From contig JABWCN010000047.1 of assembly GCA_013359135.1 (NCBI GenBank), positions 1-33,044 of the forward strand: DNA of 33,044 nt. Direction: 5' to 3'. The first letter of the stretch is position 1. Each line of letters begins with the position of its first letter. Shown one piece after another: positions 9,052 through 32,041 of the stretch. The notes below the pieces were generated by a model, which saw only the letters and a program-made list of their open reading frames with translations, was not told the origin of the DNA and searched no databases. The stretch is from Pseudobdellovibrionaceae bacterium. GTDB taxonomy: Bacteria; Bdellovibrionota; Bdellovibrionia; Bdellovibrionales; Bdellovibrionaceae. The position numbers were made by a program, and so were the translations under genes.

Positions 9052-11481
9052 ATGCCACATACAATAAAGTTCGATAAACTTAGATTATCTTTTCTGTATA
9101 TATTAATACCAGTTTCAATAGCCGTAACGATTAGTGTTGGGTCTTTGATCTTATTTATGATAGATCAATTTCATTTAAAAATAGAATCGGGTATTGTTTT
9201 TTTAAATCCTGTAGTTGCTTTAGGTTATCTTTTACTTTCGATTGCTATTATTTTTCTTTATTTAAAACCACATACTAGATGGAAAATTATTTCAGGTAGA
9301 GTAATTTCTGGTATTGTTTTTCTATTTTCTCTTTTTACACTTATTGAGTTTTTTGGGAATATAGAAACTCATGTTGTATCTACGCTTTATAGTAAACTGC
9401 GTGATTCAGGTTCTTTTAACTTTAACGAATTAATGAGTATAGAAACAGGATTTTTATTCTTAGTTTTGGGACTAGCTTATTCTTGTACAAGTTATAAAAG
9501 AATTTTAAATAAGTTTTCAGTAACATTAAATGCTGTTGTTTTTTTTATTTCTCTAGTTGCTATTATGGGTTATGTCTTTGGTGTTCCTGCTTTTTACAAA
9601 TTGCATAGATTACCGGATTTTAATTTTTTTTCAGCGTTGTGTGCGTTTGCCTTATCTATAGCTGGTTTTTTTACAAGGCCTGTAGGTAGTTATTTCATGA
9701 TTTTAATGAGTAAAGGTGCCGCCGGAGCTTTTGCTAGAAGAGTTTCTGTAGCTTGTTTAATTCTGCCACCACTTTTTGGAAAGTTAGGACTTTACTATTC
9801 AACAGAGGGAATACCTAACTCTCAAGCCTATGCTTTAGTGGCAATTTTGTGTTTGCTTGCAATGGTTGGTGTTGTTTGGAAAAGTTCTAAAGAATTGGAA
9901 CAAATAGACAGAAATCGATTAGGCACTGAAAAAGAAAGATTAAAATCAATAGCCCAAACTGATGCTATTTTGGCTAAGGCTCCTATTGGAATTGCTTTAT
10001 TTGGAGTGACTGGAGATTTAATAAAAGCAAATCAAATTTTTTACCAGTATATAATAAAAAACACTGAACAAATAAATATAACTAAAATTGATATTTTGAA
10101 GCAACATTTACATTGTGTTCAAAACTTTAATGTTGCTCATTTAATTAATTCTGAATTGCCTGGAAAAAGTTTTGAAATTGAAGTTGTTGAAGATAACAAA
10201 AGTATTTTTTTGAATTTAAATTTTTTTGTTGTTAAATCTGCTATTGGTGAGTTTTTGGGTTTAGGATGCTCTTTTGTTGAAATTACCCATCTTAAGGAAA
10301 TTGAAAGCGAACTTAGAAATGCGAGAGACGAAGCAAATAGCTCTAACAAAGCGAAGTCACAATTTCTGGCAAATATGAGTCACGAAATAAGAACTCCTGT
10401 TGGGGTGATTATGGGATTTCTAGATATTATTAAAAATAAACAGTCTTCAAATGAAGAACAAAATAATCACATTTCGATCATTGAAAGAAATTGTCGGCAG
10501 TTATTAAATATAATTGATGATATTTTAGACTTATCAAAAGTTGAAGCTGGTAAAATAAAAATTCAAAAAGAAGAAGTTAATCCACAAGTTTTGATAGAGG
10601 ACTTAAGGGCTATTTTAGAATTGAGAACAGTTGAAAAAAACATTGAGTTTGAGGTGAATGTAAGAGGCCCGCTTCCAAGTGCTATCATTTCCGATAATAA
10701 TCGGATGAGACAAGTGATTTTAAATATTTGTGGAAATGCCATAAAGTTTACAAAAAAAGGAAAAGTAACCCTCGAGTGCTTTACAGATACATCAAAGATC
10801 TATTTTAGAGTCACTGACCAAGGGTGTGGAATACCAACTGATCAAGTAGAAAAATTATTCAAGCCATTTGCTCAAGCTGACTCATCTGAAACAAGGGAGT
10901 TTGGTGGTAATGGACTAGGTTTAGCATTGTCCCAAAAGCTTGCTAACTCTTTAGGTGGGGACGTTGTCATAGAGAAAACTACTGAAAATATAGGAAGTGT
11001 TTTTTTAGTCTATTTTGACATGGGGTTAGAGGAGCTTAAAGAAATTGAAAAAAAGCGTCAACAAAATTACCCATCCAAATCAAAAGAGTTGGATCATGAT
11101 GTACCTTTAAAAAGTAAGAAAGTTTTAGTAGTGGATGATTCACCCGACAACAGACTATTAATTTCATATCTTCTAAAGAATGAAGAGATTGAAGTTGAAA
11201 CAGCTTGTGATGGAAGTGAAGGGTATGAACGAGCTTTATCGCAGAATTATGATTTAATTTTATTAGATTTACAGATGCCGGTTATGGGTGGATATGAGGC
11301 CGCCCAAAGACTAAGAGAAAGTGGTTACAAAAGTCCAATAGTAGCATTAACAGCTCATGCTATGATTGGAGAAAAAGAAAACTGTCTCAATGCCGGATTC
11401 AATGATTATCTGACTAAACCAATAAATAAGGTGAAGCTACTCGATGTTCTAAAATATAATATAGAAAATGCTTCCCTTTGA
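9052..11481 (+). CDS. Membrane-bound hybrid sensor histidine kinase
   Basis: The protein has 809 aa and starts at an ATG with GAGG upstream, nine bases after the Hpt gene. Residues about 12-290 contain roughly eight hydrophobic segments with few soluble loops, an unrecognised multi-pass sensor region. A PAS-like segment follows (about 300-420, around AKAPIGIALFGVTGDLIKAN). HisKA holds H444 in FLANMSHEIRTP. The ATPase domain shows N562 in NICGNAIKF, the G1 box DQGCGIP and the G2 box GGNGLGLALSQKL. A C-terminal receiver (about 685-803) has VVDDS, phospho-acceptor D739 in ILLDLQMPVMGG, and a TKP motif. All catalytic residues are present. It should autophosphorylate, pass phosphate to its own receiver, then to the Hpt protein and the OmpR-type regulator. 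The signal is unknown. The gene ends two bases before the convergent dioxygenase gene. Confidence 0.94.
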   Translation: MPHTIKFDKLRLSFLYILIPVSIAVTISVGSLILFMIDQFHLKIESGIVFLNPVVALGYLLLSIAIIFLYLKPHTRWKIISGRVISGIVFLFSLFTLIEFFGNIETHVVSTLYSKLRDSGSFNFNELMSIETGFLFLVLGLAYSCTSYKRILNKFSVTLNAVVFFISLVAIMGYVFGVPAFYKLHRLPDFNFFSALCAFALSIAGFFTRPVGSYFMILMSKGAAGAFARRVSVACLILPPLFGKLGLYYSTEGIPNSQAYALVAILCLLAMVGVVWKSSKELEQIDRNRLGTEKERLKSIAQTDAILAKAPIGIALFGVTGDLIKANQIFYQYIIKNTEQINITKIDILKQHLHCVQNFNVAHLINSELPGKSFEIEVVEDNKSIFLNLNFFVVKSAIGEFLGLGCSFVEITHLKEIESELRNARDEANSSNKAKSQFLANMSHEIRTPVGVIMGFLDIIKNKQSSNEEQNNHISIIERNCRQLLNIIDDILDLSKVEAGKIKIQKEEVNPQVLIEDLRAILELRTVEKNIEFEVNVRGPLPSAIISDNNRMRQVILNICGNAIKFTKKGKVTLECFTDTSKIYFRVTDQGCGIPTDQVEKLFKPFAQADSSETREFGGNGLGLALSQKLANSLGGDVVIEKTTENIGSVFLVYFDMGLEELKEIEKKRQQNYPSKSKELDHDVPLKSKKVLVVDDSPDNRLLISYLLKNEEIEVETACDGSEGYERALSQNYDLILLDLQMPVMGGYEAAQRLRESGYKSPIVALTAHAMIGEKENCLNAGFNDYLTKPINKVKLLDVLKYNIENASL

Positions 11482-11483
11482 TA

Positions 11484-12368
11484 CTAACCAAACCTTACGC
11501 TTCTCATTGAAATGGATCCATTTTGCATACCTTCATAATCGAAATGTATTTGATCCTTTTCATCACTTGCTCCAAGGATATAAAGCAATGGATAATAATG
11601 ATCAGGTGTGGGTACACTCAGTCTTCCTGCTTCTGATTTTAAATGATTGCGAATCATTTCGTTGAAGTTTCTATCGCTTAGATTTTTTTTGCTCCACTCG
11701 TCAAATTCAACAGCCCAATCAAAGGGTTTGGCGTTTTCTTCCCAACTTATTCGTCTTAGATTATGAACAATATTTCCACTACCCATAATTAGGATACCTT
11801 GATCTCGTAAAGAATTTAACTTTCTGCCCAGTTCAAAATGAAATTCTGCTGGTTTAGTCATGTCAAGACTTAGCTGGACAATTGGTACATCAGCTTTTGG
11901 ATACACATGCTTCAAAACGGCCCAAGTTCCATGATCTAACCCCCAGTCATTTTCATCAAGGAATATATTTGGATCTGTAATTTGCTGATTAATTTTCTCT
12001 GCTAGTTCTGGATTTCCAGGAGCTGGATAATTAACATCAAAAAGCTCTTGTGGAAAACCATAGAAATCATGGATTGTTTTTGGATTCTTCATATGAGTTA
12101 CCCAAGTACCCTTGGTCATCCAATGAGCAGAAATCATTAGTATTGCCTTTGGCTTAGGTAATATTTTTCCTACATGATTAAGCGACTGAGTGTACGAATT
12201 ATTTTCAATGGCATTCATGGGGGAGCCATGACCGATAAAAATGATCGGCATTTTTCCATTTTCTGTCTCTGATTTTTTTTTGTTCACAGTAAACCTCCTA
12301 TTAATTAGTGCGGTTAACGTCGCAGCAGTCAAAGCTGATAGTGTTATTAAAGCCGTGCGACGGTTCAT
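11484..12368 (-). CDS. ygiD: DODA-type (class III) extradiol ring-opening dioxygenase, YgiD-like
   Basis: The long form has 294 aa. The core matches the YgiD/LigB family: GHGSPMNA, ISAHW, LDHGTWAVLKHVYP, SGNIVHNLR and PTPDHYYPLLYILGA. Candidate metal and active-site histidines are H47, H82, H146, H202 and H257. The family is metal-dependent and cleaves catecholic rings. The substrate here is unknown. The first 27 residues (MNRRTALITLSALTAATLTA...) resemble a twin-arginine or membrane-targeting signal, which is unusual for the roughly 262-aa E. coli protein. A GTG at 12287 has AGGAGG six bases upstream and would give a 267-aa cytosolic form, so the true start is uncertain. It probably belongs with the upstream oxidoreductase and esterase genes. 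Confidence 0.88.
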   Translation of the reverse strand: MNRRTALITLSALTAATLTALINRRFTVNKKKSETENGKMPIIFIGHGSPMNAIENNSYTQSLNHVGKILPKPKAILMISAHWMTKGTWVTHMKNPKTIHDFYGFPQELFDVNYPAPGNPELAEKINQQITDPNIFLDENDWGLDHGTWAVLKHVYPKADVPIVQLSLDMTKPAEFHFELGRKLNSLRDQGILIMGSGNIVHNLRRISWEENAKPFDWAVEFDEWSKKNLSDRNFNEMIRNHLKSEAGRLSVPTPDHYYPLLYILGASDEKDQIHFDYEGMQNGSISMRSVRFG

Positions 12369-18501: not shown

Positions 18502-18999
18502 CTACAAATCTTCTAGAAGATTTTTTATTTGCTCGACAAAATAGGGCTCACAAAGAGATTTCGATAAGTTTACTTTGATCTCTCGAGTTTGTTTTCGTTC
18601 TTTTGTTGTTTGACTTTTTCGAGGGGACTTTTTTTCTCCCTTGATAATACTTTCTGAGCTTACAAAGCAGGGTTCCCATTTCTCACTTAGGTGATTTCCT
18701 GAGAAAATTTCGTAGACCTTTGAAACGTAAAGTAATTCAGTCGATGATTCTATTATGAAGCGGCCTTTAACTTGTTGTTGATGCTTTAGCAAAATAGTAG
18801 TATGATATTTGACAGATTTTTTCGTCACAATCGGAGTCATGCTAAATCTTTGTGGTATGTCCATTTGATTTGTGACTTCCAAATAAAGAGCTTCATCATT
18901 TCGTAAGAAAATCTGAGTGAGCTCGATATTAGTAATTGATTTATCACCAATAGGTTTTGTTGAGTCTAAGAACAAGGGGTTAATTGTACTCAAGCCCAC
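18502..18999 (-). CDS. Unknown protein coupled to ParA
   Basis: The protein has 165 aa, starting at a GTG whose codon lies inside the end of the parA-like gene (10-base overlap), so the two are translationally coupled. TTG 18993 is an alternative start. I do not recognise a family. Residues about 20-105 look like a beta-rich domain (YLEVTNQMDIPQRFSMTPIV, then RFIIESSTELLYVSKVYEIF). A strongly basic linker follows (about 120-142, KKSPRKSQTTKERKQTREIK), then a short helical tail. There is no ParB-like helix-turn-helix and no ParB nuclease motif. The basic segment could bind DNA or stimulate the ATPase as the N-terminal tails of ParA partners do, which is inference from position. Confidence 0.7.
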   Translation of the reverse strand: MGLSTINPLFLDSTKPIGDKSITNIELTQIFLRNDEALYLEVTNQMDIPQRFSMTPIVTKKSVKYHTTILLKHQQQVKGRFIIESSTELLYVSKVYEIFSGNHLSEKWEPCFVSSESIIKGEKKSPRKSQTTKERKQTREIKVNLSKSLCEPYFVEQIKNLLEDL

Positions 19000-19739
19000 A
19001 TTTCCATAGCCAAATTAGCTAAAGCAAGTCCTGCTGGATTTTTTGGAGAAAACTTTCTCATAGGTAAATGTTTGTGATGAGCCTCTTCGACGACGATCGA
19101 GTCTGGAATATAGTTGTTAAAAACAGGGATACTGTAGTTAGACCGTAGATCTTGAATTACCTGTTCAACAATACGTCGATTCCTATACTTTGAAATTATA
19201 ATTCCGCGTACGTTTATTTTATGTCCTAGTCCTGTGTGAATATTTTTGAGTGTCTCTAGTATGAGTTCTATGCCTTTCAAAGAAAAATATTCAGGACAAA
19301 CCGGAATAACTATATCTTTAGATGCAATTAATGCATTTACAGTGAGGAGTCCCAAAGAAGGAGAACAATCAATAATAACAATATCGTAGTTGTCTTTAAC
19401 TTCAGCAAGACCTCTCTTAAGGATACTCTCTCTACCAAATTTTGAAGATAAAATGATTTCAATTCCGCTTAACATGATCTCAGAAGGAATAACATCAATT
19501 CCAAAAGATTCAGAGTGTACTACAGCTTCTTTGGCTTCAATTTCAGAGGTTAGAACATCATAGATCGTATTTTCAAATTCATTGTCACCGAAAATGGCTC
19601 TTGTCGCAGAAGCTTGAGGGTCTAGGTCTATCAAAAGAATTTTTTTACCTAATTGAGACCACTGTGCTGCTACATTAATGGCTGTTGTTGTTTTGGCAAC
19701 TCCACCTTTTTGATTGATAAATGATACAATGTTACTCAT
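18990..19739 (-). CDS. ParA/Soj-family ATPase
   Basis: The protein has 249 aa, with GAGG upstream of the ATG. It has the deviant Walker A KGGVAKTT (residues 11-18, both signature lysines present), Walker A' LLIDLDPQASAT and Walker B IVIIDCSPSLGLL. This is the compact Soj type without an N-terminal helix-turn-helix. It should dimerise with ATP, bind DNA nonspecifically and move a cargo. The cargo is normally set by a partner protein encoded next to it. Here the partner is not ParB but an unknown basic protein. No parS-like 16-mer was seen. Chromosomal orphan ParAs can place chemotaxis arrays, flagella or other complexes, and a plasmid origin is not supported by any neighbouring gene. Confidence 0.92.
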   Translation of the reverse strand: MSNIVSFINQKGGVAKTTTAINVAAQWSQLGKKILLIDLDPQASATRAIFGDNEFENTIYDVLTSEIEAKEAVVHSESFGIDVIPSEIMLSGIEIILSSKFGRESILKRGLAEVKDNYDIVIIDCSPSLGLLTVNALIASKDIVIPVCPEYFSLKGIELILETLKNIHTGLGHKINVRGIIISKYRNRRIVEQVIQDLRSNYSIPVFNNYIPDSIVVEEAHHKHLPMRKFSPKNPAGLALANLAMEMWA

Positions 19740-19972: not shown

Positions 19973-21187
19973 ATGATCATAAAAAAGTGTTTCATATTAG
20001 TTACTTTGATTTCTCTTTGTTTCAGTCCCAACATTTTGGGTTCAGAATATTATTATATTATGAAACCAGGTGAAAGCTTGTCACGATTACTCTATAAAAA
20101 TGATATCAAGCCTATTTATCACAAGTGGGGATCACTAAGAGCTCTTGAAGAATACAACATTAAAACTATATTTAACTCTGATTATGTTTTAGCAGGACAG
20201 AAAGTTTTTTTCCCAACTGTTATTGTCAGATTTCTTAAAAAAAATAACGCTATTTTGATTTCTAAAAATAATGAAATTTTTTTTAAGAATAAAACAGATA
20301 CAAATTTAAGACTTCCAGCTCATCAAAATTCTGAAGTACAGAATCCATTGCAAGAAAACCCCTTACTTGTTGAAATCACAAAAAGCGATGATTCTTCAGA
20401 AAACTCAAATTCAGTAGATGAAAAAAATATATCTACTGAAAATTCTAAAAAAGTAGTTATAAATTTAAATGAAACAAAAAGTTCTCAAGTAGAAAATTTT
20501 AAACCTAAACCAGTTATTGCTGAAACTGAAAAAGAACAAAGTAATCTTTCAATTGCTATTGGAAGTGGATATTCACGAATCGACTCCATAATGAACTCTG
20601 GAAAAGCGGTTTTACTTTCTAAACCAACCTCAAATATTAAGTTAGATTGGGAACAGCTTTGGAGTAAAGACTTTCATACTTCAATTAGCTGGGGTTATGA
20701 ATCTATTCCATTTCAGTCAGCTAATGTAGGAAGTATTTATAATAATAGACAAAACCTAACTCATTTTGAGTTAGGTCTGTCTTCTTTGTTTTTTAACAAA
20801 CTTTGGTTCGGTTTATATTTTGGACAAAAAGAGAATGTCTTCATTACTTCAAATATCCAAAGCACTGCAACTCTTGAAAGCATTGCTAATGGGTATACTA
20901 GATTATCTCTAAATTCTGAGTTAATCAGAAGGAAAAAATTAAGTTTTTTTGTAGGTGTTGACGTTTCTAGTTTAGCAGCAAACTCGATGGAGTCATATGA
21001 TGTTAAATCAGGAACTTCTATTTCTGGGCAACTTACTATTAAACAACAATTCCGAAAATTTAGTTTCTTTATGACTGGTGAGTATCAGACAACTAACCAA
21101 AATACATCGATTACATCACAATCTGGTCGCGATATTAAATCATATTTAGGCATTTCAATGCCACTTGGAGGTGGTGTTGATGATTAA
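19973..21187 (+). CDS. Exported LysM-like protein with beta-barrel-like C-terminus
   Basis: The protein has 404 aa. MIIKKCFILVTLISLCFSPN and the following NILGSEY form a signal peptide. Residues about 26-82 resemble a LysM peptidoglycan-binding unit: YYIMKPGESLSRLLYKND at the start and YVLAGQKVFFP at the end, though longer and more divergent than consensus. A polar Asn/Ser/Lys linker follows (about 100-185). From about 190 to 404 alternating hydrophobic strands (for example LWFGLYFGQKENV and FFVGVDVSSLAAN) suggest an outer-membrane beta barrel, but the last residue is not the usual aromatic. It is the first gene of a likely operon with a small lipoprotein and the giant fibre. I infer that it links the fibre assembly to the cell wall or outer membrane. 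The ribosome binding site is weak. Confidence 0.72.
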   Translation: MIIKKCFILVTLISLCFSPNILGSEYYYIMKPGESLSRLLYKNDIKPIYHKWGSLRALEEYNIKTIFNSDYVLAGQKVFFPTVIVRFLKKNNAILISKNNEIFFKNKTDTNLRLPAHQNSEVQNPLQENPLLVEITKSDDSSENSNSVDEKNISTENSKKVVINLNETKSSQVENFKPKPVIAETEKEQSNLSIAIGSGYSRIDSIMNSGKAVLLSKPTSNIKLDWEQLWSKDFHTSISWGYESIPFQSANVGSIYNNRQNLTHFELGLSSLFFNKLWFGLYFGQKENVFITSNIQSTATLESIANGYTRLSLNSELIRRKKLSFFVGVDVSSLAANSMESYDVKSGTSISGQLTIKQQFRKFSFFMTGEYQTTNQNTSITSQSGRDIKSYLGISMPLGGGVDD

Positions 21188-21479
21188 TTTAAAAAAGTTT
21201 TTGGTTTTAATCACAACTCTTAAACTACTAACTTCATGTTCTAATCCTCTTGGTTCAGGAGAATCGCATGTTGATCCAAATTACGGAGGGAATGAAAAAA
21301 AACTTCCTGCCCCAACTCAATTTCAGCCTGTAGCAGGAAGTAAATTATCTCAAACCTCTATGACAGGAACAAAAGTCGTTGATGTGACTGTGGGCTCTAC
21401 GACTGGAACTTTGAAATTAAAGACCACAAAAAATAGAACAACGTATTTAAGTGTACAAGGACAAATTTTATCCAATTAA
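21180..21479 (+). CDS. Small lipoprotein in the fibre operon
   Basis: The protein has 99 aa. GGAGG eight bases before the ATG at 21180 decides the start. The gene overlaps the end of the LysM/barrel gene by eight bases. The signal peptide MINLKKFLVLITTLKLLTSC ends in a lipobox (LTSC). The mature part of about 80 residues is rich in Gly, Thr, Ser and Lys, with a possible short beta-hairpin (KVVDVTVGSTTGTLKLK). No family is recognised. It is followed 43 bases later by the fibre gene, so it may be an assembly or anchoring factor for the fibre, like small lipoproteins in other surface appendage operons (inference). Confidence 0.75.
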   Translation: MINLKKFLVLITTLKLLTSCSNPLGSGESHVDPNYGGNEKKLPAPTQFQPVAGSKLSQTSMTGTKVVDVTVGSTTGTLKLKTTKNRTTYLSVQGQILSN

Positions 21480-21522
21480 TTAGGTATTATAAATTTAAAA
21501 CACTGAGGAAATTTAAGGAAGT

Positions 21523-24500
21523 ATGAACCAGATCTCGAAAAAACTTAATCTTATTAAAAAAGATATTCTTTTAAGGAAGTACTTAAAAAAATTTTTGATT
21601 TTGATAGTGTTTTGTTATCTGGATGCTTTGGGGGGACAGAGTTTTACTGTTCAAGGGCGAATATTAAATACCGATGGCACCCCAGTCAATGGGAGCTCAG
21701 TTCAATTCAAGGTGCAAATACGTAGTCCTGGATCAGAAAATTGCCTGCTTTATGAGGAAACTCAAAGTCTGGATCTGTCTCAAACGCAAGGTTCTTTTGC
21801 TTTAACTATAGGACAAGGTAGTCGTGCGAGTACAAGTGTTGACGGCGGGAATGCTTTAAATAGTATTTTTTCAAACTCAAAAGTCATTTCTTTATCTTCA
21901 GCCAGTGGGGCTTGTTCTGGTACAACTACTTATACCCCAGCTAAAAGTGATATTCGCAATCTGATTTTAACATATAATGATGGTTCTGGTTGGGACAGTA
22001 TTCCAACAATTCCTCTTTCTTGGGTGCCACAGGCTATGTATGCACAAGATAGTGAAAAGCTTGGTGGTGTTAGTAGCTCACAGTTTTTAAGTGTTGCCAG
22101 TGGAACTACGCCAACAACTTTGTCTGCTGCAGATTACACCAATCTTATGACCTTACTTGCTGGGACTAACACGAACTATATAGCTAAAACTTCCTTACCA
22201 ACTTGCCCCAGTAGTGAGTATTTAACAACAGACCCTTCTGGTAACTTAGTTTGTGCCGGTATTAGTGGCGCTTCTGGTGGAACGGTAATCGGTGTCAGTT
22301 CGGCAAATGCTTATTTAAGTGTTAGCGCCTCAAGCACCACCCCTGTTGTTACCCTAAACGTTGGAACCACCGCAAACACGGTGGCTGCTGGTAATGACAC
22401 ACGCCTTGTTGGAGCTTTGCAGTCAGGGTCGAGTGCTGGTGGGGATTTAACAGGAACCTATCCCAATCCTACTTTGGCAGCCAATGCTGTCACCACAGCC
22501 AAGATCAATGATCAAGCTGTTACGGCTGCAAAAATCGCAAATACAACTATTACTGATGCACAAGTATCAACAACAGCAGCAATCAGTGATACAAAACTTG
22601 CAACTATTTCCACAGCAGGCAAGGTGTCAGGTAGCGCCCTCACAAGTGGGACCATCGGTGGCAGCACGGCCATCAATACTTCGGGCAACATCACTAGTTC
22701 TGGAACCATACAAGGGTCTACAGTTTCTGCAACACATGCAACAGCAAGAGATTTGCAGTTATATGATTCCGGTTCAAACAAAGTGACCCTGCAAAGCCCA
22801 ACAACTTTAGCAGCAAATTATAGCATGACTTTGCCAGCATCACTTCCAGGAGCTAGTGGTTATGTTTTATCATCTGATATATCAGGAGTGCTCACGTGGA
22901 TTGCTCCGAGTACGGGATCAGTGACAAGTGTATCAGCAACAGCACCAATCAGCTCAACAGGTGGAGTGACACCAGTTATTTCTATAACTCAAGCAACAAC
23001 TTCAACGAATGGATATTTGTCCTCAACGGATTGGAACACTTTTAACAACAAACAAACGAACACTTTGACTACAGGAAAAATGTGGATCGGCAATGGTTCA
23101 AGTGCTGCTACGGAATTTAGTCCCAGTGGGGATGTCAGTATGAATTCCAGTGGAAGTTTTTCTGTTAACAGCATCAAAGGCACAGCCGTTTCTTCAACCA
23201 CTCCTTCTATTGCTGGCCAAGTTTTAAGGTACGATGGAACGTCCTCTTGGGCGCCTGGTTTTTTAAGTTTAGCTGATATTAGATCTACGGTGACCCCTGG
23301 AAATACCATGTTCCCTGCGACAGCTTGCAGTTCAAGTCAAACTCTGACTTGGTCATCACTTACCGACACTATGACCTGCGCTAATATTACTGTGGATGCC
23401 AGTGCCCTTAGCACAGGAACCATCAATGCTGCAAGACTGCCTGCAAGCGTTGCTCTTAATGGAGGCAATGCTTTTGGAAGTAATAGTTCCATTGGTAACA
23501 CAGATAATTACAACTTAAATTTTCTAACGAACAACACAACGCGAATGACTATTGATAGTAGTGGAAATGTTGGGGTTGGTACGACAGCTCCGAGTGCAAA
23601 ATTTTCAGTTGTCGGTAATTCAACGATAGGTGGGAATGTTGCTCCTGGTTCAAATACATCATTGTTAGTCACTGATAATGCAGCTTTAGCTGCATCTGAA
23701 AATTTAGCATTGATTCGAGCCTATAATAATACACCCAATGCAAATGCTAATTTGCTTTTAGTTGGAACCTCTGGTGGCACGGGAAGTGGTTGGGAGAGAT
23801 TTGTTGTAAAGTCTTCTGGAAGTGTAGGTATAGGTACGACTTCTCCAAATTCGAAATTGGAGATATCATCACTTTTAGATCCAATGAGTTCTATTGGAAC
23901 AATTACAAATTATAATTTCATTTTGAAAAATAATTCAGATACGAATGGTTCAAGTACTGGAATTGCTTTTGGTGTTTCTAGTGGTAATACAATCGGTGCC
24001 TCAATCTATCATATAAGACAAGGGGCAAATAGTTATGGGGATTTGGCAATTGCGACAAAAAACTCATCGGGAACGATGAACGAATCATTAAGAGTTCAAA
24101 GTGGTGGAAACGTTGGTATTGGAACCACAGCTCCAGCCTCCAAGCTACATGTGGGTGTGGCACCAACAGCCACGGCTAACTATCCACTTTTTGCCTTAGG
24201 CTCTGGGGCTTTTGATGGCAGTACTACAGGGTATTTCGTTGGAAACACTAATGGAACAGTACTTGGTGCCAACACCGCAAGTACTTACACCGGAGATTTA
24301 TTAAATTTTGAAATCGCTGGAGTTTCTAAATTCAAAGTGGATTACCAAGGCAATATCACATCTAGTGGCACTACCAATTTATCTGGAACAACAACGACAT
24401 CTGGTAATTTTTCACAAACTGGATCTGCGACTTTTTCCACAGGTACAGGTGCTGTCTCTCTTAATGGTGCGACCACAGTTGCGGCTAATCAAAACTTAAC

Positions 24501-26958
24501 AATTTCTTCAGGGACGGGCACATTTAATCAAACTTATACAGGCACAACAGGAACAGCCTCTACTTTAACGGCTAACTCACTCACAAGTGGAAGTATTTTA
24601 TCACTCACTTCAAACTCAACAGCAGCGGCTAATGGCAACACTGGATTAAATATCGCTATCAGTGGTGCTAATGCAACGTCAGGAATTACAAGAACAGGAA
24701 TTTCTTCAAGTGTGACATCAACGGGAACAAGCTCAACAAATGTGGCAGCTAGTTTTTCTGCTAGTGGTGGAACAAATAATTATGGACTGCTAGTTCCCAA
24801 TGGTAATGTGGGGATTGGAAATACAGCTCCACTAAAACGCTTGCATGTAAATAACAGTGGGTTGTTAATTGATGGTACATCAGCAATTGAAAGCTCGCCT
24901 TATTCTGCTAGATTAATCGTAGACTCGGGTGCTTCTACAGGCCATATTCTGGCAGATTTAAAGAATAGTAATGGCAGTCAATTATATGTTTCTGGTAGTA
25001 GTGTAGGTATTGGTACAGCTTCTCCAAGTACTAAGCTAGATGTTCAAAGTACTGCTTATATGCAGCAAAGGCTTTGGCAAACAGGTTCATCACAACAATT
25101 ATGGCTCGGGTCAGTGGCTGACAGTGTGGGGAGTTATATAGGTAATAACGCTTATTACTCTGCCTCATATCAATTTATGCCAAATTATACTCAAGCTTCA
25201 GGAGTGAACTTTAGACAAGATGGCTCTACAGAGTTTTGGAATGATTCGGGTTTAACAAGTGGCACATTGTATACTCCAAGCAAAAGGATGGTAATTTTAT
25301 CAAGTGGCAACGTGGGAATTGGTACGACAAGCCCTACAAATAATTTGCAGGTTGGCACAACGGCAACTTCTGCAACATCATCTCCAGTGACAGCCTCATT
25401 AGGTGGTACTTATAGTTCAACAGCTGGCGCAAATCCAAAGTTGAAAATTTGGGATAATGGAAGTTTGTATTATGGAATTGGAGTGTCATCAACTCAAATG
25501 GATTTCATAGCAGGTCAAACTGGTGGGAAACATGCTTTCTATGTCAATGCTAACTCAACTCCTTCGGTAACTATAAATTCAAGTGGGTATGTAGGTATTG
25601 GCTATACGAATGCAACAAAGCCACTGGATGTGAATGGTGCTGCTCGAATGGGAACTATTAATACTGGATATTCAACAACGGAACGTTTTTATCCCAATGT
25701 CATTACCCAAGTTCAGGATACTACAGTCACAGGAGCTTGGATTGTCCATACTCCCATTACAAGAACTTCAAATAATATGTTTAAAATCAGAGTTTTTGGT
25801 TATGGCTATGGAAATTCAAAAAATATAGATTTTAGTATTGTAGGCTATGCTTACATGTCAACCAATGGCAGTGTTGATGGCGTTCCTGGTGCCGTTATAT
25901 CGTATTCTTTAAGTGATTCTGGTAATGACGGGCTAGCAAAATACGTTGGAATAGATGCTAATGGTTATGTCGCTATAGCTTTGGGAAGCACTTCTTTATC
26001 AGCTTATTTTTACAGAATTGGTGTTGATGCTTGGATAACTAAATCAACCTCTGATTACAGCTCTGGATGGTCAATAGATCAAAATACCACAGCAGGATTT
26101 GGTTGGCTGGATATTCACGGACCTCTGGCGAATGGAACATCAAACTATACATCTTTAGCTCTTGGTAGTTATGCTTCAAGTACAACTCCACCAACGAATG
26201 GTCTTATTGTTAGTGGCAATGTTGGTATAGGAGTGAGTAATCCTGGCGCAGCATTAGATGTCGCTTCGAGCATTAGACTTAGTGGTGGTTCTATACCATT
26301 TTATTTAAGTGATGGAACTACAGGTTGTTATAATAATAACTTTAGAATCGGAACAACACAATGTTCTGGAGTCATTTCTACGGATAATATGTTATCCATC
26401 ACATCAGGTGGTGCCGTTGGAATTGGGACTGGGTCTCCGGGAGCTCCCCTTGAAATTTCAAGCACATCTGACGCTATTATGAGATTGAGACAACAAGGTG
26501 GTGGTTGGAATTATATTGAATACTATAACGACACAATTAGAACCTTATTTCAAGGGATGCAAACTGATACTTTATATAGCTTAAACGGACAAATGTTTTT
26601 AAACACTTCAAATGGAAATATTGGCATTGGAACGCAAAGTCCTTCAGCAACCCTTGATGTCAAGGGGCATATGGGAAACTCTGGAGCTTCTGCCACGATC
26701 ACATCTTGTGGATCCTCAGCGACAATTTCTGGAAATGACACAAGAGGAACTGTGACACTAGGAACAGGAAGCCCTACCTCATGCACAATAACATTTGCTT
26801 CTGCATTTTCAACATCACCAATTTGTGTTGTTTCTCCAAATGGTGGTGACCCGGGGGCAATTAGATGGTGGACAGTCCCCTCAACCACTGCTCTTGTAAT
26901 TAATTTTTCTTCGACTCCTACGACGAACCAACAATTTGCTTATTATTGTATTCAATAA
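21523..26958 (+). CDS. Giant tail-fibre-like adhesin (MAT-like mosaic fibre)
   Basis: The protein has 1811 aa, with AAGGAAG just before the ATG. A basic N-terminus and hydrophobic stretch (about 20-38) act as a signal peptide. Residues about 40-180 form an N-terminal beta domain (SFTVQGRILNTDGTPVNGSS, ending PLSWVPQAMYAQDSEKLGG). Residues about 300-520 are phage tail-fibre-like, with GDLTGTYPNPTLAANAVTTA and YLSSTDWNTFNNKQ. From about 680 to 1710 come about ten copies of GNVGIGTT.P..KL.V spaced by diverse inserts. The last 95 residues form a separate tip (ITSCGSSATISGNDTRG, then WWTVPS, ending YYCIQ). There is no S74 chaperone domain and no YadA anchor. The architecture matches Bdellovibrio mosaic adhesive trimer fibres, which recognise prey. 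Trimerisation and prey binding are inferred. Confidence 0.87.
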   Translation: MNQISKKLNLIKKDILLRKYLKKFLILIVFCYLDALGGQSFTVQGRILNTDGTPVNGSSVQFKVQIRSPGSENCLLYEETQSLDLSQTQGSFALTIGQGSRASTSVDGGNALNSIFSNSKVISLSSASGACSGTTTYTPAKSDIRNLILTYNDGSGWDSIPTIPLSWVPQAMYAQDSEKLGGVSSSQFLSVASGTTPTTLSAADYTNLMTLLAGTNTNYIAKTSLPTCPSSEYLTTDPSGNLVCAGISGASGGTVIGVSSANAYLSVSASSTTPVVTLNVGTTANTVAAGNDTRLVGALQSGSSAGGDLTGTYPNPTLAANAVTTAKINDQAVTAAKIANTTITDAQVSTTAAISDTKLATISTAGKVSGSALTSGTIGGSTAINTSGNITSSGTIQGSTVSATHATARDLQLYDSGSNKVTLQSPTTLAANYSMTLPASLPGASGYVLSSDISGVLTWIAPSTGSVTSVSATAPISSTGGVTPVISITQATTSTNGYLSSTDWNTFNNKQTNTLTTGKMWIGNGSSAATEFSPSGDVSMNSSGSFSVNSIKGTAVSSTTPSIAGQVLRYDGTSSWAPGFLSLADIRSTVTPGNTMFPATACSSSQTLTWSSLTDTMTCANITVDASALSTGTINAARLPASVALNGGNAFGSNSSIGNTDNYNLNFLTNNTTRMTIDSSGNVGVGTTAPSAKFSVVGNSTIGGNVAPGSNTSLLVTDNAALAASENLALIRAYNNTPNANANLLLVGTSGGTGSGWERFVVKSSGSVGIGTTSPNSKLEISSLLDPMSSIGTITNYNFILKNNSDTNGSSTGIAFGVSSGNTIGASIYHIRQGANSYGDLAIATKNSSGTMNESLRVQSGGNVGIGTTAPASKLHVGVAPTATANYPLFALGSGAFDGSTTGYFVGNTNGTVLGANTASTYTGDLLNFEIAGVSKFKVDYQGNITSSGTTNLSGTTTTSGNFSQTGSATFSTGTGAVSLNGATTVAANQNLTISSGTGTFNQTYTGTTGTASTLTANSLTSGSILSLTSNSTAAANGNTGLNIAISGANATSGITRTGISSSVTSTGTSSTNVAASFSASGGTNNYGLLVPNGNVGIGNTAPLKRLHVNNSGLLIDGTSAIESSPYSARLIVDSGASTGHILADLKNSNGSQLYVSGSSVGIGTASPSTKLDVQSTAYMQQRLWQTGSSQQLWLGSVADSVGSYIGNNAYYSASYQFMPNYTQASGVNFRQDGSTEFWNDSGLTSGTLYTPSKRMVILSSGNVGIGTTSPTNNLQVGTTATSATSSPVTASLGGTYSSTAGANPKLKIWDNGSLYYGIGVSSTQMDFIAGQTGGKHAFYVNANSTPSVTINSSGYVGIGYTNATKPLDVNGAARMGTINTGYSTTERFYPNVITQVQDTTVTGAWIVHTPITRTSNNMFKIRVFGYGYGNSKNIDFSIVGYAYMSTNGSVDGVPGAVISYSLSDSGNDGLAKYVGIDANGYVAIALGSTSLSAYFYRIGVDAWITKSTSDYSSGWSIDQNTTAGFGWLDIHGPLANGTSNYTSLALGSYASSTTPPTNGLIVSGNVGIGVSNPGAALDVASSIRLSGGSIPFYLSDGTTGCYNNNFRIGTTQCSGVISTDNMLSITSGGAVGIGTGSPGAPLEISSTSDAIMRLRQQGGGWNYIEYYNDTIRTLFQGMQTDTLYSLNGQMFLNTSNGNIGIGTQSPSATLDVKGHMGNSGASATITSCGSSATISGNDTRGTVTLGTGSPTSCTITFASAFSTSPICVVSPNGGDPGAIRWWTVPSTTALVINFSSTPTTNQQFAYYCIQ
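23562..26675 (+). repeat. About ten GIGTT-type repeats encoded in the fibre shaft
   Basis: The protein-level motif G-N/S-V-G-I-G-T-x-x-P occurs about ten times between residues 680 and 1715, each followed by K-L-x-V/I. DNA of the repeats is only partly conserved (ggaaatgttggtattggaac-like cores), so these are diverged structural units, not a recent tandem duplication. The inserts between them vary from about 40 to over 200 residues. Confidence 0.85.
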
Positions 26959-27148
26959 CTATGACAACATTCAAATGTAATTCGAAGAGTTAGTCTCTTA
27001 TCTCAGAAGTCATTCTTAAATTTCAGACGAATCGGATCTCAGAACAAATATAAGGGTATTATACCAGTGACTAATCTTGGTCCCAGCTTTGCAAATCACA
27101 AAGCCCAGTGTGCAGCAAGCAGGTTGCATAAATGGCTTTGGGGGAAAA

Positions 27149-28300
27149 TTGAAATTATTAAACTGGTATTATCTTCACCTTGTTTTTATCATTATAATAG
27201 TTGCAGGTAAGGTCCTTGCCGCAAACAATAAAGTTTATGAAAAGTTTTTGCCACCAACAGAAAATCTTCTTCTTAACTTTGTGGTTCAACGTGAAGAAAA
27301 TCTTAAAAACTTGGTTACTTTCATCAAATCAGAATGCGGTGATAAAATTATCACAAAAAACAGTCAGGGACAGAATGTTGTTACCTATCGACGTAAACTT
27401 CGCCTGTGTTATTTGCAAGCTAAACTGAATGCCTATTATAAAATACAAGCTAAAATATTTTTACCTAAACAGGATCTTATTTATTTTCCAGATATTGAAT
27501 CGATAGCTGACAATACGATGACTCAGCAATCGCGCTGGAATCTATCAAAAATTTTATCACAAAATTATATTATACGTCCGAACCCAAAAGGAATGAAAGC
27601 AACAATTGATCTGATAGCAGAACTTCTGACTCAAAAACGAGAATTGATGCAAGAACTTGAGCTGGTAGGAAAAGAGATGAGGCAACTATCTTACGGGAAA
27701 AATCTGATGAGCTACTATTTAATTCCGTCTCTTAAAGCTTCTATCAATAACATAACCCCACTTGGAGCCATGCTGGAATTGTTTCAATCCATTCGCTGTG
27801 AATTAGAAGATAATTTCTGCCTTTATTTAAAAGCTCGTATTGGAAGCGTTCTGAATGAGATTTCAGTTGTACACGGAGAAAAACTAACCGATTTTGTAAA
27901 TCGTTTTAACTCATATGCATCATCGGAAGGTACACAAAATGCTAAACGTTTGACAAAACTGTTAGAGTTTAATGTCGCTTATCATAATTCTGAAGTTCAA
28001 AATCATGCAAAGTATATTTCTGAAATAAAAACATCGATCGAAAACTTCGTGGCTGACGGTGAGGGTAGCTTTGTCAACGATCGTCTCCAGTCTTTTGCTC
28101 AGAATATTCTAGTATTAGCTGAAGTTTCTTACTTTACTCAGCATTTAGTAAATCTAAGTGCCTATGCCAGTGATCTTTCCTTTGCAACAAGAAAACAAGC
28201 TGCGAAAGCATTGTTGCCACAAATTAATCAGTCTTTAGAAATATTAGAAACTCAATTCCAGCTGCTTGGATTTGACGAAGAAGTCGGAGGTAGTCGATGA
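27149..28300 (+). CDS. Exported helical protein of unknown function
   Basis: With the TTG at 27149 the protein has 383 aa. The frame is open from 27077, but no ATG precedes the signal peptide. GGGGGA lies just before TTG 27149, which yields MKLLNWYYLHLVFIIIIVAG with cleavage near LAANN. A GTG at 27107 is an alternative. The mature part is mainly alpha-helical and charged, with a Cys pair region early (SECGDK, then LRLCYLQ) and another later (IRCELEDNFCLY). No family is recognised. The stop codon overlaps the ATG of the following lipoprotein gene (ATGA), which indicates translational coupling. It is the first of four exported proteins, and arginine codons are mostly CGT or CGC here. Confidence 0.72.
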   Translation: MKLLNWYYLHLVFIIIIVAGKVLAANNKVYEKFLPPTENLLLNFVVQREENLKNLVTFIKSECGDKIITKNSQGQNVVTYRRKLRLCYLQAKLNAYYKIQAKIFLPKQDLIYFPDIESIADNTMTQQSRWNLSKILSQNYIIRPNPKGMKATIDLIAELLTQKRELMQELELVGKEMRQLSYGKNLMSYYLIPSLKASINNITPLGAMLELFQSIRCELEDNFCLYLKARIGSVLNEISVVHGEKLTDFVNRFNSYASSEGTQNAKRLTKLLEFNVAYHNSEVQNHAKYISEIKTSIENFVADGEGSFVNDRLQSFAQNILVLAEVSYFTQHLVNLSAYASDLSFATRKQAAKALLPQINQSLEILETQFQLLGFDEEVGGSR

Positions 28301-29241
28301 AAACACTTATTTTATTTTTAGCTCTATTAGTTATTTTTGGTTGTGCAAACAACGATGATAAAGCAGTACCTAAGGCTGAACAGCCTGTTAAGGAAAAAAC
28401 GGATATTTCTGCGAGTGAGGTCAGCTCTATTAAAGAAGTTCAGCTTGTTGGCTTAGCAGAAACGACAGCGGTGCGTGTGGGACTTGAGAATGATTCTGTC
28501 GTTATTTCTACTATGACTATCGCAAATGGACAATCTGTGTTTAAGACGGTTTTTTATCCAAAAGTAAATGACTTTAAACAAATCAATTATTCTGATAAAG
28601 GTTTATTTGATTTCAAGTTTGATACTAAAATAGCATCCAGCCGAACTGTCGACACTTTATTTTCAAAATTTAAAAAGTTGATGCAAGTATATCATTTAAA
28701 AGATGTCTATCGCTGTCGCAGTTCAAAATTTTGGCCTCAGATGGTTGATTACACTCCAGATAAACGTGGACCTGGACTTTTGAGATTGGAACAAGAACTG
28801 TACTTTCCCAGTTTAGAAGCCGAAGCCTACTTAGTTTTTGATTTTAACTCAGAGAAACTATTTGATATTGTTTTTAGAAAAACGCCGGATCATTTGGAAG
28901 GTGACTATTATACCTCTGGTCTTGGCTCTCAGTTAACGCAGTCACTGGGCACATTCTCGCTGTTTTGCAAAGAAGGATATAAAACATTAAAGCCTAACTA
29001 TATTGGTGAAGAATTTTTGAAGGACATCGATAAAGACGCTTCCGATTTAGCCGACATTTATATTCAGCGCTATATCCCAAATGCAATGACTTTGGATTTA
29101 AATAAAATGGGTCTTGGAAATGAACTTAGAAATCTTTCCCAGATTATGTCTGAGCTAAAAAAACATCGTGCCTTTATATCTGAGTCACATTGGGATTTTT
29201 ATATCCATAGTATTCAGACAGTGCGTGGATTTCATAATTAA
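28297..29241 (+). CDS. Lipoprotein of unknown function
   Basis: The protein has 314 aa. GGAGG lies before the ATG, which overlaps the previous stop codon. MKTLILFLALLVIFGCANND shows a lipoprotein signal with lipobox IFGC. The residues after the Cys are N-N-D-D; an Asp immediately at +2 is absent, so outer-membrane sorting is plausible. The mature part starts with a low-complexity linker rich in Lys, Glu and Pro, then a mixed beta/alpha domain (for example TAVRVGLENDSVVISTMTI and EAEAYLVFDFNSEKLFDIVF). Two cysteines (YRCRSS and LFCKEG) could form a disulphide. No family is recognised. It could hold the neighbouring exported proteins at the membrane, or protect the producing cell if the cluster is toxic. 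Both ideas are inference from position. Confidence 0.78.
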   Translation: MKTLILFLALLVIFGCANNDDKAVPKAEQPVKEKTDISASEVSSIKEVQLVGLAETTAVRVGLENDSVVISTMTIANGQSVFKTVFYPKVNDFKQINYSDKGLFDFKFDTKIASSRTVDTLFSKFKKLMQVYHLKDVYRCRSSKFWPQMVDYTPDKRGPGLLRLEQELYFPSLEAEAYLVFDFNSEKLFDIVFRKTPDHLEGDYYTSGLGSQLTQSLGTFSLFCKEGYKTLKPNYIGEEFLKDIDKDASDLADIYIQRYIPNAMTLDLNKMGLGNELRNLSQIMSELKKHRAFISESHWDFYIHSIQTVRGFHN

Positions 29242-29261
29242 TAATTTTAAAAGAGGAAAAA

Positions 29262-31001
29262 ATGAAAACACTAAATATAATTACATTTGCCTTTATGGTA
29301 TTAACAATGAATCTGGCTCAAGCTGTTGAATTCAGCTTGGACGGAAACTTGAATCATGAAATTCAACTGACATGGAACAAACTGACTAAGTTTCGCCACT
29401 CACTTGATTGCTATCCCACAGGGAAAGGCTCTGAACGTGAAGATTTAGGTGGCGAAACTGTTCGTACAGCAGTAAGTTTAGATGCGTTTTCAGAAAAGAC
29501 AATTAGTATTAGTTCAAATCGTGGTGTTGAGATTGGAAAAGTAAATTATAATCTATCTTTGGCTGCGACGGGTGATTATGAAGACGCTGTGTTTTCTCTG
29601 GTAGACTCAATTAATTGGAGTAAGTATGTAAATATTGGTGACTCCGACTGTGTGCTTCGTGAGTACCACTGGAAAGTCAGTTCGCATCGTATCTATGGAA
29701 ACTACAATATTAATATTAAAGTTCCACAAAATACCTGGGTTATCTCTGTCAGTATTCCTATTCATGAAGGGCAAATTGCTAATTTTAAAAAATCTGTTAA
29801 GGGTGATTTGCATTCAGCTCAGATAGACACAAATGAAATGATTTTATGGGTTCGTCCTGGTAGCGTCGTTTCACTTCCTATAAACATAGATGGATACACT
29901 GGTGCGGGTCGTTTTGGAGAAATTCGAATTCGAGTTAAAAAATCGATTTTACAAATCAACGGTTATGAAAACGACGGAAATTCACGGCTTTTGAAAATCC
30001 GTGACAGTATGGCCAGTAGTCGCAGTACTAATAATGAAAATTTAGCAAAAGAATTTTTGGAGATTGGTCATCAGCTGTTGCAAAACCCAAAGATGTCGTC
30101 GTTAACGATTCAGAGTTTCAGTATGGAAAAAAATCGCCAGATTTTGGATTGGTTATTTGGAATGGCCAACGATCCATTTCTTAAATATGGTAAATACTCT
30201 CAGCATGTTAAAGCCATGGCGGCAGCAGTCGGATACCAGCTTTCACTTAACCTGCTTAATGATCTTATGGTTTTTTGCAAAGAAATTGATGTCTATCTTC
30301 CATTAGCTGGCAAAACGATCCGATCAAATGGCTTAACGGCAGCCTATTTCTGGGTGAACAAGGACATCAAACGATTAGAAAACCTGCGTTTCCCAGAAAT
30401 TCGTGCCTTTGTTGAAGAAATAGTTCGCTGGGAAAATTCAAATCTTAAATATTCGGATATTGCAAACAACAAGACTGAATTCAAGAAATTAGATGAAGGT
30501 TATTTAAAAATTCGACGTTTTTCAGAAATTGGCTTGGATGTATTTGGTGATATCAAGTTTGGTTTGAATAAAACATTAAGTATTTTTGGAAGTGTAGGCT
30601 CTAATTTAATTTTAGTGACAAATATTAAAAGCCAACTAGATACCTTGGCAGATCAGCGACGTTCGTTAAATAGAGATTTAACGAAAATGGTAAATGAGTT
30701 TACATATATGAATAACGGCTTTATTAAGGCAGCAGATTTGTTAAGCAAGTTAAACGCTTTAGAAGTAAAAACAAAACAGTTAGCAACGGATTTAAAAGAA
30801 CAAACAAAACTAGTTGCTGTCGATGGTGATACTGGTTCTGCCACAGCTATGATGACATCCATTTTGGCTCATCAAGTGGCCATCTTCAAAAAACCACTGA
30901 ATTCGAAATTTGCAGAGCCGATTCGTGCTTTGTTTTTTCAAATAGAAGAAGATCAGAAAATTTCAAATCAGTTTAATGTTTGCTTAGGAGAAAATAAATA
31001 A
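29262..31001 (+). CDS. Exported two-part protein: beta-rich N-terminus, helical C-terminus
   Basis: The protein has 579 aa, with AGAGGA seven bases before the ATG. The signal peptide MKTLNIITFAFMVLTMNLAQ is cleaved at AQA/VEF. Residues about 20-230 are beta-rich with paired cysteines (SLDCYP and DSDCVLREYH). From about 240 to the end the protein is helical, with long amphipathic helices and a likely coiled coil near SQLDTLADQRRSLNRDLTKM and ALEVKTKQLATDLKEQTKLV. A mildly hydrophobic Gly-containing stretch, IKFGLNKTLSIFGSVGSNLI, lies before that coiled coil. No family is recognised. The layout of a globular head plus helical bundle with a small hydrophobic patch recalls alpha-helical pore-forming toxin subunits, but I see no diagnostic motif. 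Its stop overlaps the next start (TAATG). Confidence 0.76.
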   Translation: MKTLNIITFAFMVLTMNLAQAVEFSLDGNLNHEIQLTWNKLTKFRHSLDCYPTGKGSEREDLGGETVRTAVSLDAFSEKTISISSNRGVEIGKVNYNLSLAATGDYEDAVFSLVDSINWSKYVNIGDSDCVLREYHWKVSSHRIYGNYNINIKVPQNTWVISVSIPIHEGQIANFKKSVKGDLHSAQIDTNEMILWVRPGSVVSLPINIDGYTGAGRFGEIRIRVKKSILQINGYENDGNSRLLKIRDSMASSRSTNNENLAKEFLEIGHQLLQNPKMSSLTIQSFSMEKNRQILDWLFGMANDPFLKYGKYSQHVKAMAAAVGYQLSLNLLNDLMVFCKEIDVYLPLAGKTIRSNGLTAAYFWVNKDIKRLENLRFPEIRAFVEEIVRWENSNLKYSDIANNKTEFKKLDEGYLKIRRFSEIGLDVFGDIKFGLNKTLSIFGSVGSNLILVTNIKSQLDTLADQRRSLNRDLTKMVNEFTYMNNGFIKAADLLSKLNALEVKTKQLATDLKEQTKLVAVDGDTGSATAMMTSILAHQVAIFKKPLNSKFAEPIRALFFQIEEDQKISNQFNVCLGENK

Positions 31002-32041
31002 TGAAAACCATAAATCTAATTAAAATATCAGTCATAGCCACGTTAATTCAAAACTCTTTCCTTCCGATCGCCTATGGAGGCGATGCTATGAGCCAAGCTG
31101 AAAAAGTTATCGAAGCTCACCGTCAATTAGCCAGAGAGAAAGCACTAGTGGCTGTGAACGAAGACTTTAACTTTGCTCTTTCTGAAACGTTAAAAGAGAT
31201 CACTAAACGACCAGACTTGAAAGAGGCAAAGAATAAGCTTTTTGTAAGTCAGGAAGAAATCTTAAATGGTTTGAAAGATTTAATTAATCTTAAGCTATCG
31301 GACACCAATAAAGTAAAAGACCAAGCATTTGAAGCATTTGAAAAGTACACATCTTTTGTACAAAAGCGCTATGATATTTCCTATATGCCAGCCGATACAC
31401 AAGCCGAGATTCGTTCTAGTTTATTTTTGGCCAATCAATCTTTAGCTACGTTTGAACGTAACTGCGCTGGAGGTAAAGGGATCGGAGGATTGAATAATCC
31501 TAACTTTAGTTATCTATCGTTGCCACGATCAGAGTATTCATTCAATGTCGGCTATTCCAGCACAAGTGGGGCAGCAGCAGGTGGAACGGGGACATTCACT
31601 GGATCTGAAACTGAAAAATCTAGAAATGAAGTCGTGAATATTGGTCTCGGAGCAACATCTGCAGTAGCAAGTATCGCCTATGGTGGATCAACCGGTGCTG
31701 CGGTAGCAGCATGTCAGGCTGCGGCTCCGTTTATGATGGCCGGTGGTGCTGTACTAGCATTAGGCGTGATGTATCTGAATCAGATTGAGCGTGTAAAAAT
31801 GCAAAACGAAATTGTCGAGGCTGAGATGCATGCATTTCATAATTCAGCCGACGATCGTGATGTTGCTCGATATTACATAAGCTCGTGCAAAAACATTTCT
31901 CAGGAATCTAAAAAACTAAGAAACATACTTAATACAGCATTAAACTCGCCAGGTGATCTTGCTGCTCTTTACCAAGAGAGTGTTGGTGACTGGGAAAAAG
32001 ATTTACAAAGTGTTAATCTTCTTTTGAAAAATCAGAGATAA
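31001..32041 (+). CDS. Exported protein with Gly/Ala-rich hydrophobic hairpin
   Basis: The protein has 346 aa, with AGGAG before the ATG, which shares a base with the previous stop (TAATG). Residues 1-26 are a signal peptide ending near AYGGD. Residues about 30-155 are charged helices. Residues about 157-200 are Gly/Ser/Thr-rich. Residues 211-259 form a continuous hydrophobic Gly/Ala-rich stretch (VVNIGLGATSAVASIAYGG, then AAPFMMAGGAVLALGVMYL), long enough for two membrane passes with a turn near GGSTG. A helical C-terminus of about 85 residues follows. Cysteines at 155 and 238 and one in SSCKNIS may pair. A membrane-inserting hairpin flanked by helices is typical of alpha-pore-forming proteins but is not proof of that role. 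The sequence character of the window changes immediately after this stop codon. Confidence 0.78.
   Translation: MKTINLIKISVIATLIQNSFLPIAYGGDAMSQAEKVIEAHRQLAREKALVAVNEDFNFALSETLKEITKRPDLKEAKNKLFVSQEEILNGLKDLINLKLSDTNKVKDQAFEAFEKYTSFVQKRYDISYMPADTQAEIRSSLFLANQSLATFERNCAGGKGIGGLNNPNFSYLSLPRSEYSFNVGYSSTSGAAAGGTGTFTGSETEKSRNEVVNIGLGATSAVASIAYGGSTGAAVAACQAAAPFMMAGGAVLALGVMYLNQIERVKMQNEIVEAEMHAFHNSADDRDVARYYISSCKNISQESKKLRNILNTALNSPGDLAALYQESVGDWEKDLQSVNLLLKNQR

Follow-up and report, generated by a model that had tools for sequence, protein, structure and literature searches.

A lipoprotein paired with mosaic adhesive trimer genes suggests an outer-membrane anchoring unit for fibres in Bdellovibrionota

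Introduction

What holds a mosaic adhesive trimer (MAT) fibre at the surface of a Bdellovibrio cell? The surface element that is bound by the conserved N-terminal domain (N-domain) of these fibres awaits identification (Caulton et al. 2024, PMC10769870), and in the open-access papers that were searched we found neither a MAT anchor nor a lipoprotein partner or a LysM/barrel protein in such a role. The question is raised anew by a stretch of 33,044 nucleotides from a Pseudobdellovibrionaceae bacterium (contig JABWCN010000047.1; hereafter the window), in which a gene for a giant MAT-like fibre follows genes for a small lipoprotein and for a protein with a LysM-like domain and a predicted β-barrel. 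A first-pass annotation of the window had suggested that the two upstream genes constitute a dedicated envelope anchor or assembly module for the fibre. Here, we suggest, with a probability of roughly 0.55, that this trio of genes encodes an outer-membrane unit by which a single MAT fibre is anchored.

Results

An open reading frame (ORF) listing confirmed the three genes of the first-pass annotation, coordinates included (Table 1). The lipoprotein ORF (21165-21479) encodes 104 residues if translation starts at a TTG codon; starting instead at an in-frame ATG (21180) leaves a signal peptide that is cleaner, MINLKKFLVLITTLKLLTSC. This ATG overlaps the stop of the barrel gene by 8 bases and the lipoprotein and fibre genes are separated by 43 bases; from this overlap and spacing we infer that the three genes are co-transcribed. 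Scans for promoters and terminators gave no clear signal (24 promoter-like sites versus 21.7 in shuffles). A stem-loop with a T-rich tail (21155-21180) lies where the barrel gene ends and overlaps the lipoprotein start; it may reflect attenuation or chance.

The fibre had been described as MAT-like, and it is recognized as such by profile: its N-domain, located after the signal peptide, matches NCBIfam NF053851 with an E-value of 4.4e-38 (130.6 bits, cut-off 60). Residues 658-751 match the solved MAT fibre chains 8ojn/8ond in sequence, and repeats of the GNVGIGTTSP type are present in the sequence. A Pfam scan gave no match anywhere in the fibre and thus no C-terminal Peptidase_S74; therefore, the fibre is of the NS74 type, which is permitted within the MAT family. 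Its C-terminal 152 residues matched no solved chain. The fibre thus shares with the MATs of Bdellovibrio bacteriovorus the N-domain after the signal peptide, the phage-fibre-like repeats and an end without S74; however, the main text describing the latter mentions no partner genes (PMC10769870), whereas the window fibre is preceded by two.

The first-pass annotation had made its module depend on conserved linkage in related genomes, and the linkage is conserved, in 13 three-gene loci and dozens of lipoprotein-MAT pairs. Among MAT genes that were not picked via the barrel, 16/65 have a lipoprotein gene directly upstream compared to 2/136 other genes (p 3e-7); over all sampled genes the counts are 25/77 and 3/276. 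The commonest arrangement, seen in 14 of these 25 pairs, is a 4-base ATGA overlap. Chance adjacency of barrel, lipoprotein and MAT genes was rejected by the linkage counts for these genes versus other genes.

The window lipoprotein has a lipobox, adjoins a MAT gene and ends in a GYxV..GYxVYxxVQGxIxS module. A profile of this C-terminal module, built from a 15-row alignment (A8), matches the window lipoprotein, itself one of the 15 rows, with an E-value of 1.2e-14 and finds the module in 57 of 144 genomes. In the reverse test, a MAT gene lies directly behind the lipoprotein gene in 19 of the best 30 loci by this profile. The other loci of these 30 mostly encode stand-alone small lipoproteins and, in the genus Bdellovibrio, most of these stand-alone lipoproteins have MAT genes as neighbours, in surroundings that are conserved. 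For many MAT genes there is a lipoprotein gene but no barrel gene. Accordingly, the proposed envelope module holds for its conserved linkage but not for its composition: the lipoprotein is the core and constant partner of MAT fibres, and the barrel is neither constant nor MAT-specific.

At E<=1e-4, profile A1 of the LysM/barrel family finds relatives in 66 of 144 genomes in the class, with part of the matches confined to the LysM portion. A lipoprotein gene directly follows 23 of 29 strong barrel-family genes by script, versus 23 of 402 other genes (p 3e-20), and 26 of 29 once three loci were read by eye. The order barrel, lipoprotein, MAT is found in 13 loci from several genera of Bdellovibrionota including Bdellovibrio (Table 1), with lipoproteins of ~96-384 residues. 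In the remaining barrel loci, the lipoprotein is mostly large and adhesin-like (790-2041 residues), and those scanned carry Invasin_D3, fn3 or Laminin_G_3 domains. The constant partner of the barrel is therefore a lipoprotein, namely a small adaptor for a MAT in some loci and a giant adhesin in others, and the barrel itself appears to be an optional anchor.

Giant lipoproteins (1361-2041 residues) are encoded directly behind a LysM/barrel gene at L060:1131-6367, L069:4068-9253, L173-L175 and L178; those of L060 and L069 carry Invasin_D3, fn3 and Laminin_G_3 domains. These proteins share a conserved C-terminal end (CEIDxLxITGKKY) and form a distinct class of candidate adhesins of the predator. 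In five loci of one genus (L074, L077, L169, L170 and L172), the lipoprotein gene consistently follows the barrel gene at a distance divisible by three, as if a fusion had been split, although this may be chance. In two lipoprotein-MAT loci, the protein encoded upstream is of another cell-wall-binding kind, with an OmpA C-terminal domain in L078 and a weak SH3_3 match in L071.

Judging from its motifs, the lipoprotein looks two-ended. An NPLG motif shortly after the lipobox is present in 10/10 lipoproteins with barrel and MAT, in 12/14 with a barrel and no MAT (both motif forms) and in 2/20 with a MAT and no barrel. The C-terminal strand motif YxxVQGxI is present in 10/10, 0/14 and 7/20 of the same groups, respectively, and in 0/49 other lipoproteins. 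Thus, NPLG tracks the barrel and YxxVQGxI tracks the MAT. Locus L179 of the genus Bdellovibrio, examined after both motifs had been noted, carries both. Lipoproteins with a MAT and no barrel mostly start with CS[ML][ED]A[SN][IL] or similar. Moreover, over 46 pairs the similarity of the lipoprotein end correlates with that of the MAT N-domain (Spearman 0.68); permuting partners within genera gave 0.26 (standard deviation 0.07), and 0.68 was reached in 0 of 2000 permutations. This co-divergence shows that lipoprotein-MAT pairs stay together.

To picture the contact between the two proteins, a fused chain from locus L063 was modelled, consisting of the mature lipoprotein, the stop codon read as Gly, the MAT signal peptide and the MAT N-domain (55 aligned sequences, with only three spanning the lipoprotein). 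The last hairpin of the lipoprotein has predicted local distance difference test scores (pLDDT) of 88/73, and the rest of the lipoprotein, which is mostly disordered, scores 30-45. In the model, the C-terminal lipoprotein strand takes first position in the immunoglobulin-like (Ig-like) sandwich of the N-domain, and 50 of 50 structural alignments start within the lipoprotein at residues 53-69 and end at ~251, against one contiguous Ig-like domain. In window-type pairs, the lipoprotein C-terminus clearly resembles the first MAT strand (p ~0.005-0.015 each). The model is suggestive of donor-strand addition. In bacterial fimbriae, a strand of one protein completes the Ig-like domain of another and thereby anchors it; likewise, the predicted donated strand would complete an Ig-like domain at the base of the fibre, with the difference that the predicted donor is a small lipoprotein and the fibre would be trimeric and phage-like. 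A search for a phage origin of the lipoprotein-MAT base gave no match in a viral structure library at E<=0.001, a result that does not exclude such an origin.

The LysM/barrel protein (404 residues) was modelled with AlphaFold2 from a 42-sequence alignment (overall pLDDT 84). The barrel-like region of the first-pass annotation is predicted to be a 10-stranded barrel (residues 190-398, pLDDT ~97), the best PDB match of which is the Neisseria adhesin OpcA (2vdf; Z 21.2, root-mean-square deviation 2.4 over 196 residues), followed by a Legionella Dot/Icm-associated porin and omptins (Z ~17-19). The likeness to OpcA and omptins lies in the fold: identity is ~10%, the window protein has an added LysM, and nothing points to an adhesin or protease function. 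The LysM call stands by homology, in that homologues in L060, L067 and L069 score above the Pfam cut-off, and not by direct search, in which the window protein itself gave no Pfam LysM match; in the model, residues 26-80 follow the strand-helix-helix-strand order of LysM. A solo member of the barrel family (L064:5112-6689) has, by eye, a FecR-like N-terminal region in place of LysM.

One genome (G060) is almost certainly that of B. bacteriovorus HD100. It has 21 MAT N-domains above the cut-off, equal to the number reported for HD100, and MAT open frames of 868, 633, 627 and 922 residues that are near in length to Bd2734, Bd2740, Bd2872 and Bd3182, respectively, for which lengths of 843, 627 and 626 residues and a construct ending at 922 have been reported (PMC10769870). 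The genome has one lipoprotein with the A8 module (E 4e-8, contig positions 3,191,019-3,191,369), which stands alone beside MAT genes. Fourteen MATs have near-uniform N-domains (>215 bits) and none of the 14 has an adjacent upstream lipoprotein gene, whereas a private lipoprotein gene lies upstream of 6 of the 7 MATs with divergent N-domains. The Bd2734- and Bd2740-like genes belong to the MATs with private lipoproteins, and deletion of Bd2734 and Bd2740 slowed predation (PMC10769870).

The genome from which the window derives has a third MAT, on contig C39 (L010:8400-10433 and 10920-11879), where the adaptor lipoprotein is reduced to a 47-residue remnant adjoining an IS3-type transposase gene. 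The module is intact in this remnant and the lipobox end is gone, so that this MAT may have lost its private anchor.

Within the window, a ParA-like ATPase gene and a small-protein gene (18502-19739, minus strand) point away from the three-gene unit. The fibre gene is followed on its own strand by a run of four genes (27077-32041; 407, 314, 579 and 346 residues), the second of which is lipoprotein-like; they gave no confident family match in Pfam and NCBIfam scans.

Table 1. Features of the three-gene unit and loci sharing its gene order.
Feature	Position	Strand	Basis
LysM/β-barrel outer-membrane protein, 404 aa	19973..21187	+	ORF; profile A1 relatives; AlphaFold2 pLDDT 84
LysM-like domain, residues 26-104	20048..20284	+	AlphaFold2 pLDDT ~95; Pfam LysM in aligned homologues
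Predicted 10-stranded β-barrel, residues 190-398	20540..21166	+	AlphaFold2 pLDDT ~97; OpcA 2vdf best PDB match
Small lipoprotein, candidate fibre adaptor	21180..21479 (ATG; TTG at 21165 possible)	+	ORF, lipobox LTSC
Post-lipobox motif CSNPLGSGESHVDPNYGG, candidate barrel-docking peptide	21237..21290	+	Motif counts across loci
Lipoprotein C-terminal two-strand module, ending TTYLSVQGQILSN, candidate MAT-docking element	21339..21476	+	Alignment A8
MAT fibre gene, 1811 aa	21523..26958	+	NF053851 match; match to solved MAT chains
Conserved MAT N-terminal domain	21628..22095	+	NF053851 profile match
Barrel-lipoprotein-MAT loci (13)	window, L061, L062, L063, L074, L077, L169, L170, L171, L172, L176, L177, L179		

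Discussion

Combining the conserved gene order, the two separately tracking motifs and the co-divergence with the predicted folds, we suggest that the unit generates a lasting, rather than transient, link between fibre and envelope: (i) the small lipoprotein would be an adaptor with its lipidated N-terminus in the outer membrane, (ii) the motif after its cysteine would dock on the LysM/barrel protein, (iii) the latter would span the outer membrane by its OpcA-like barrel and grip peptidoglycan via the periplasmic LysM, and (iv) the C-terminal strand of the lipoprotein would join the Ig-like N-domain of the fibre in a donor-strand-like manner. In this way, the lipoprotein would hold the base of the fibre at the cell surface so that the tip projects.

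Several points weigh against this reading. About three quarters of the sampled MAT genes are without an adjacent lipoprotein gene, so that the reading must assume shared adaptors acting in trans, and a profile A1 search found no barrel of the window family in the HD100-like genome despite its 21 MATs. Some of the data used for counting the motifs had also served to define them, so the motif counts are descriptive, and linked inheritance alone could produce the co-divergence. The fused model is one chain in which the artificial linker can force a contact, only three sequences cover its lipoprotein part and its best Ig-like match is weak (Z 8.1). Finally, strand similarity is weak in many lipoprotein-MAT pairs other than those of the window type, and sequence mimicry is therefore not claimed as general.

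Alternatively, the lipoprotein could be a transient assembly factor or trimerisation nucleator, i.e. a periplasmic or outer-membrane chaperone. The tight coupling through the ATGA overlap and the strand mimicry would be in keeping with a folding partner as well, and a single chaperone could act on all 14 uniform MATs. We consider this unlikely given that a lipid anchor and a barrel/peptidoglycan partner fit holding better than folding, and that the same barrel also serves giant lipoprotein adhesins, for which a MAT chaperone is unnecessary. It is less probable still that the lipoprotein anchors the fibre and the barrel has another role, e.g. in bringing lipoproteins to the surface. The pairing of the barrel with lipoproteins, with or without a MAT, would be in line with such a role, but the barrel gene lies directly before adaptor and MAT in 13 loci and its product carries a cell-wall-binding LysM.

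The likeness to the inverse autotransporters (intimin/invasin, type Ve) raises the possibility of fibre export by the LysM/barrel protein, acting either as a split inverse autotransporter or within a two-partner system. As in these proteins, an N-terminal LysM is followed by an outer-membrane barrel, and partner lipoproteins elsewhere, i.e. the giant variants, carry Invasin_D3-like (Ig-like) and lectin-like adhesin domains. However, type Ve systems are single polypeptides, whereas the window ORF stops after the barrel, the passenger is a separate chain encoded by its own gene, and the adhesin is a lipoprotein. Moreover, the barrel is modelled with 10 strands as opposed to 12 in the intimin/invasin type and is closer to OpcA and omptins than to the invasin barrel 4e1t (Z 9.8), on which ground an exporter was rejected as first choice. 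Because the barrel is predicted to be 10-stranded and is missing where most MATs occur, as in the genome with 21 MATs, an export role is very improbable. Scarcely credible is the notion that these are merely co-regulated surface genes without physical interaction: it draws on the conjectural status of every contact in the anchoring unit, but one gene order is found again and again across many genera, each of the two lipoprotein motifs goes with a different neighbour and the pairs co-diverge beyond genus.

The preferred anchoring unit may be one variant of a broader scheme. Given that lipoproteins adjoin 0/14 uniform and 6/7 divergent MATs in the HD100-like genome and that this genome has a single A8 adaptor, we propose shared and private adaptors. 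Tentatively, and at somewhat less than even odds, adaptor lipoproteins may hold MATs in general by donating a C-terminal strand to the N-domain, the stand-alone adaptor of HD100 serving the 14 uniform MATs, divergent MATs having private adaptors and some relatives adding a LysM/barrel tie to peptidoglycan.

Bdellovibrio uses MAT fibres in the recognition and handling of many prey, and our analysis names candidate genes, including in the model strain, for the surface element that holds them. The adaptor model could explain the near-identity of the N-domain in some MATs and its divergence in others. If an adaptor is shared, deletion of one gene could test the simultaneous loss of many fibres, a test to which the redundancy of the fibres has been an obstacle until now.
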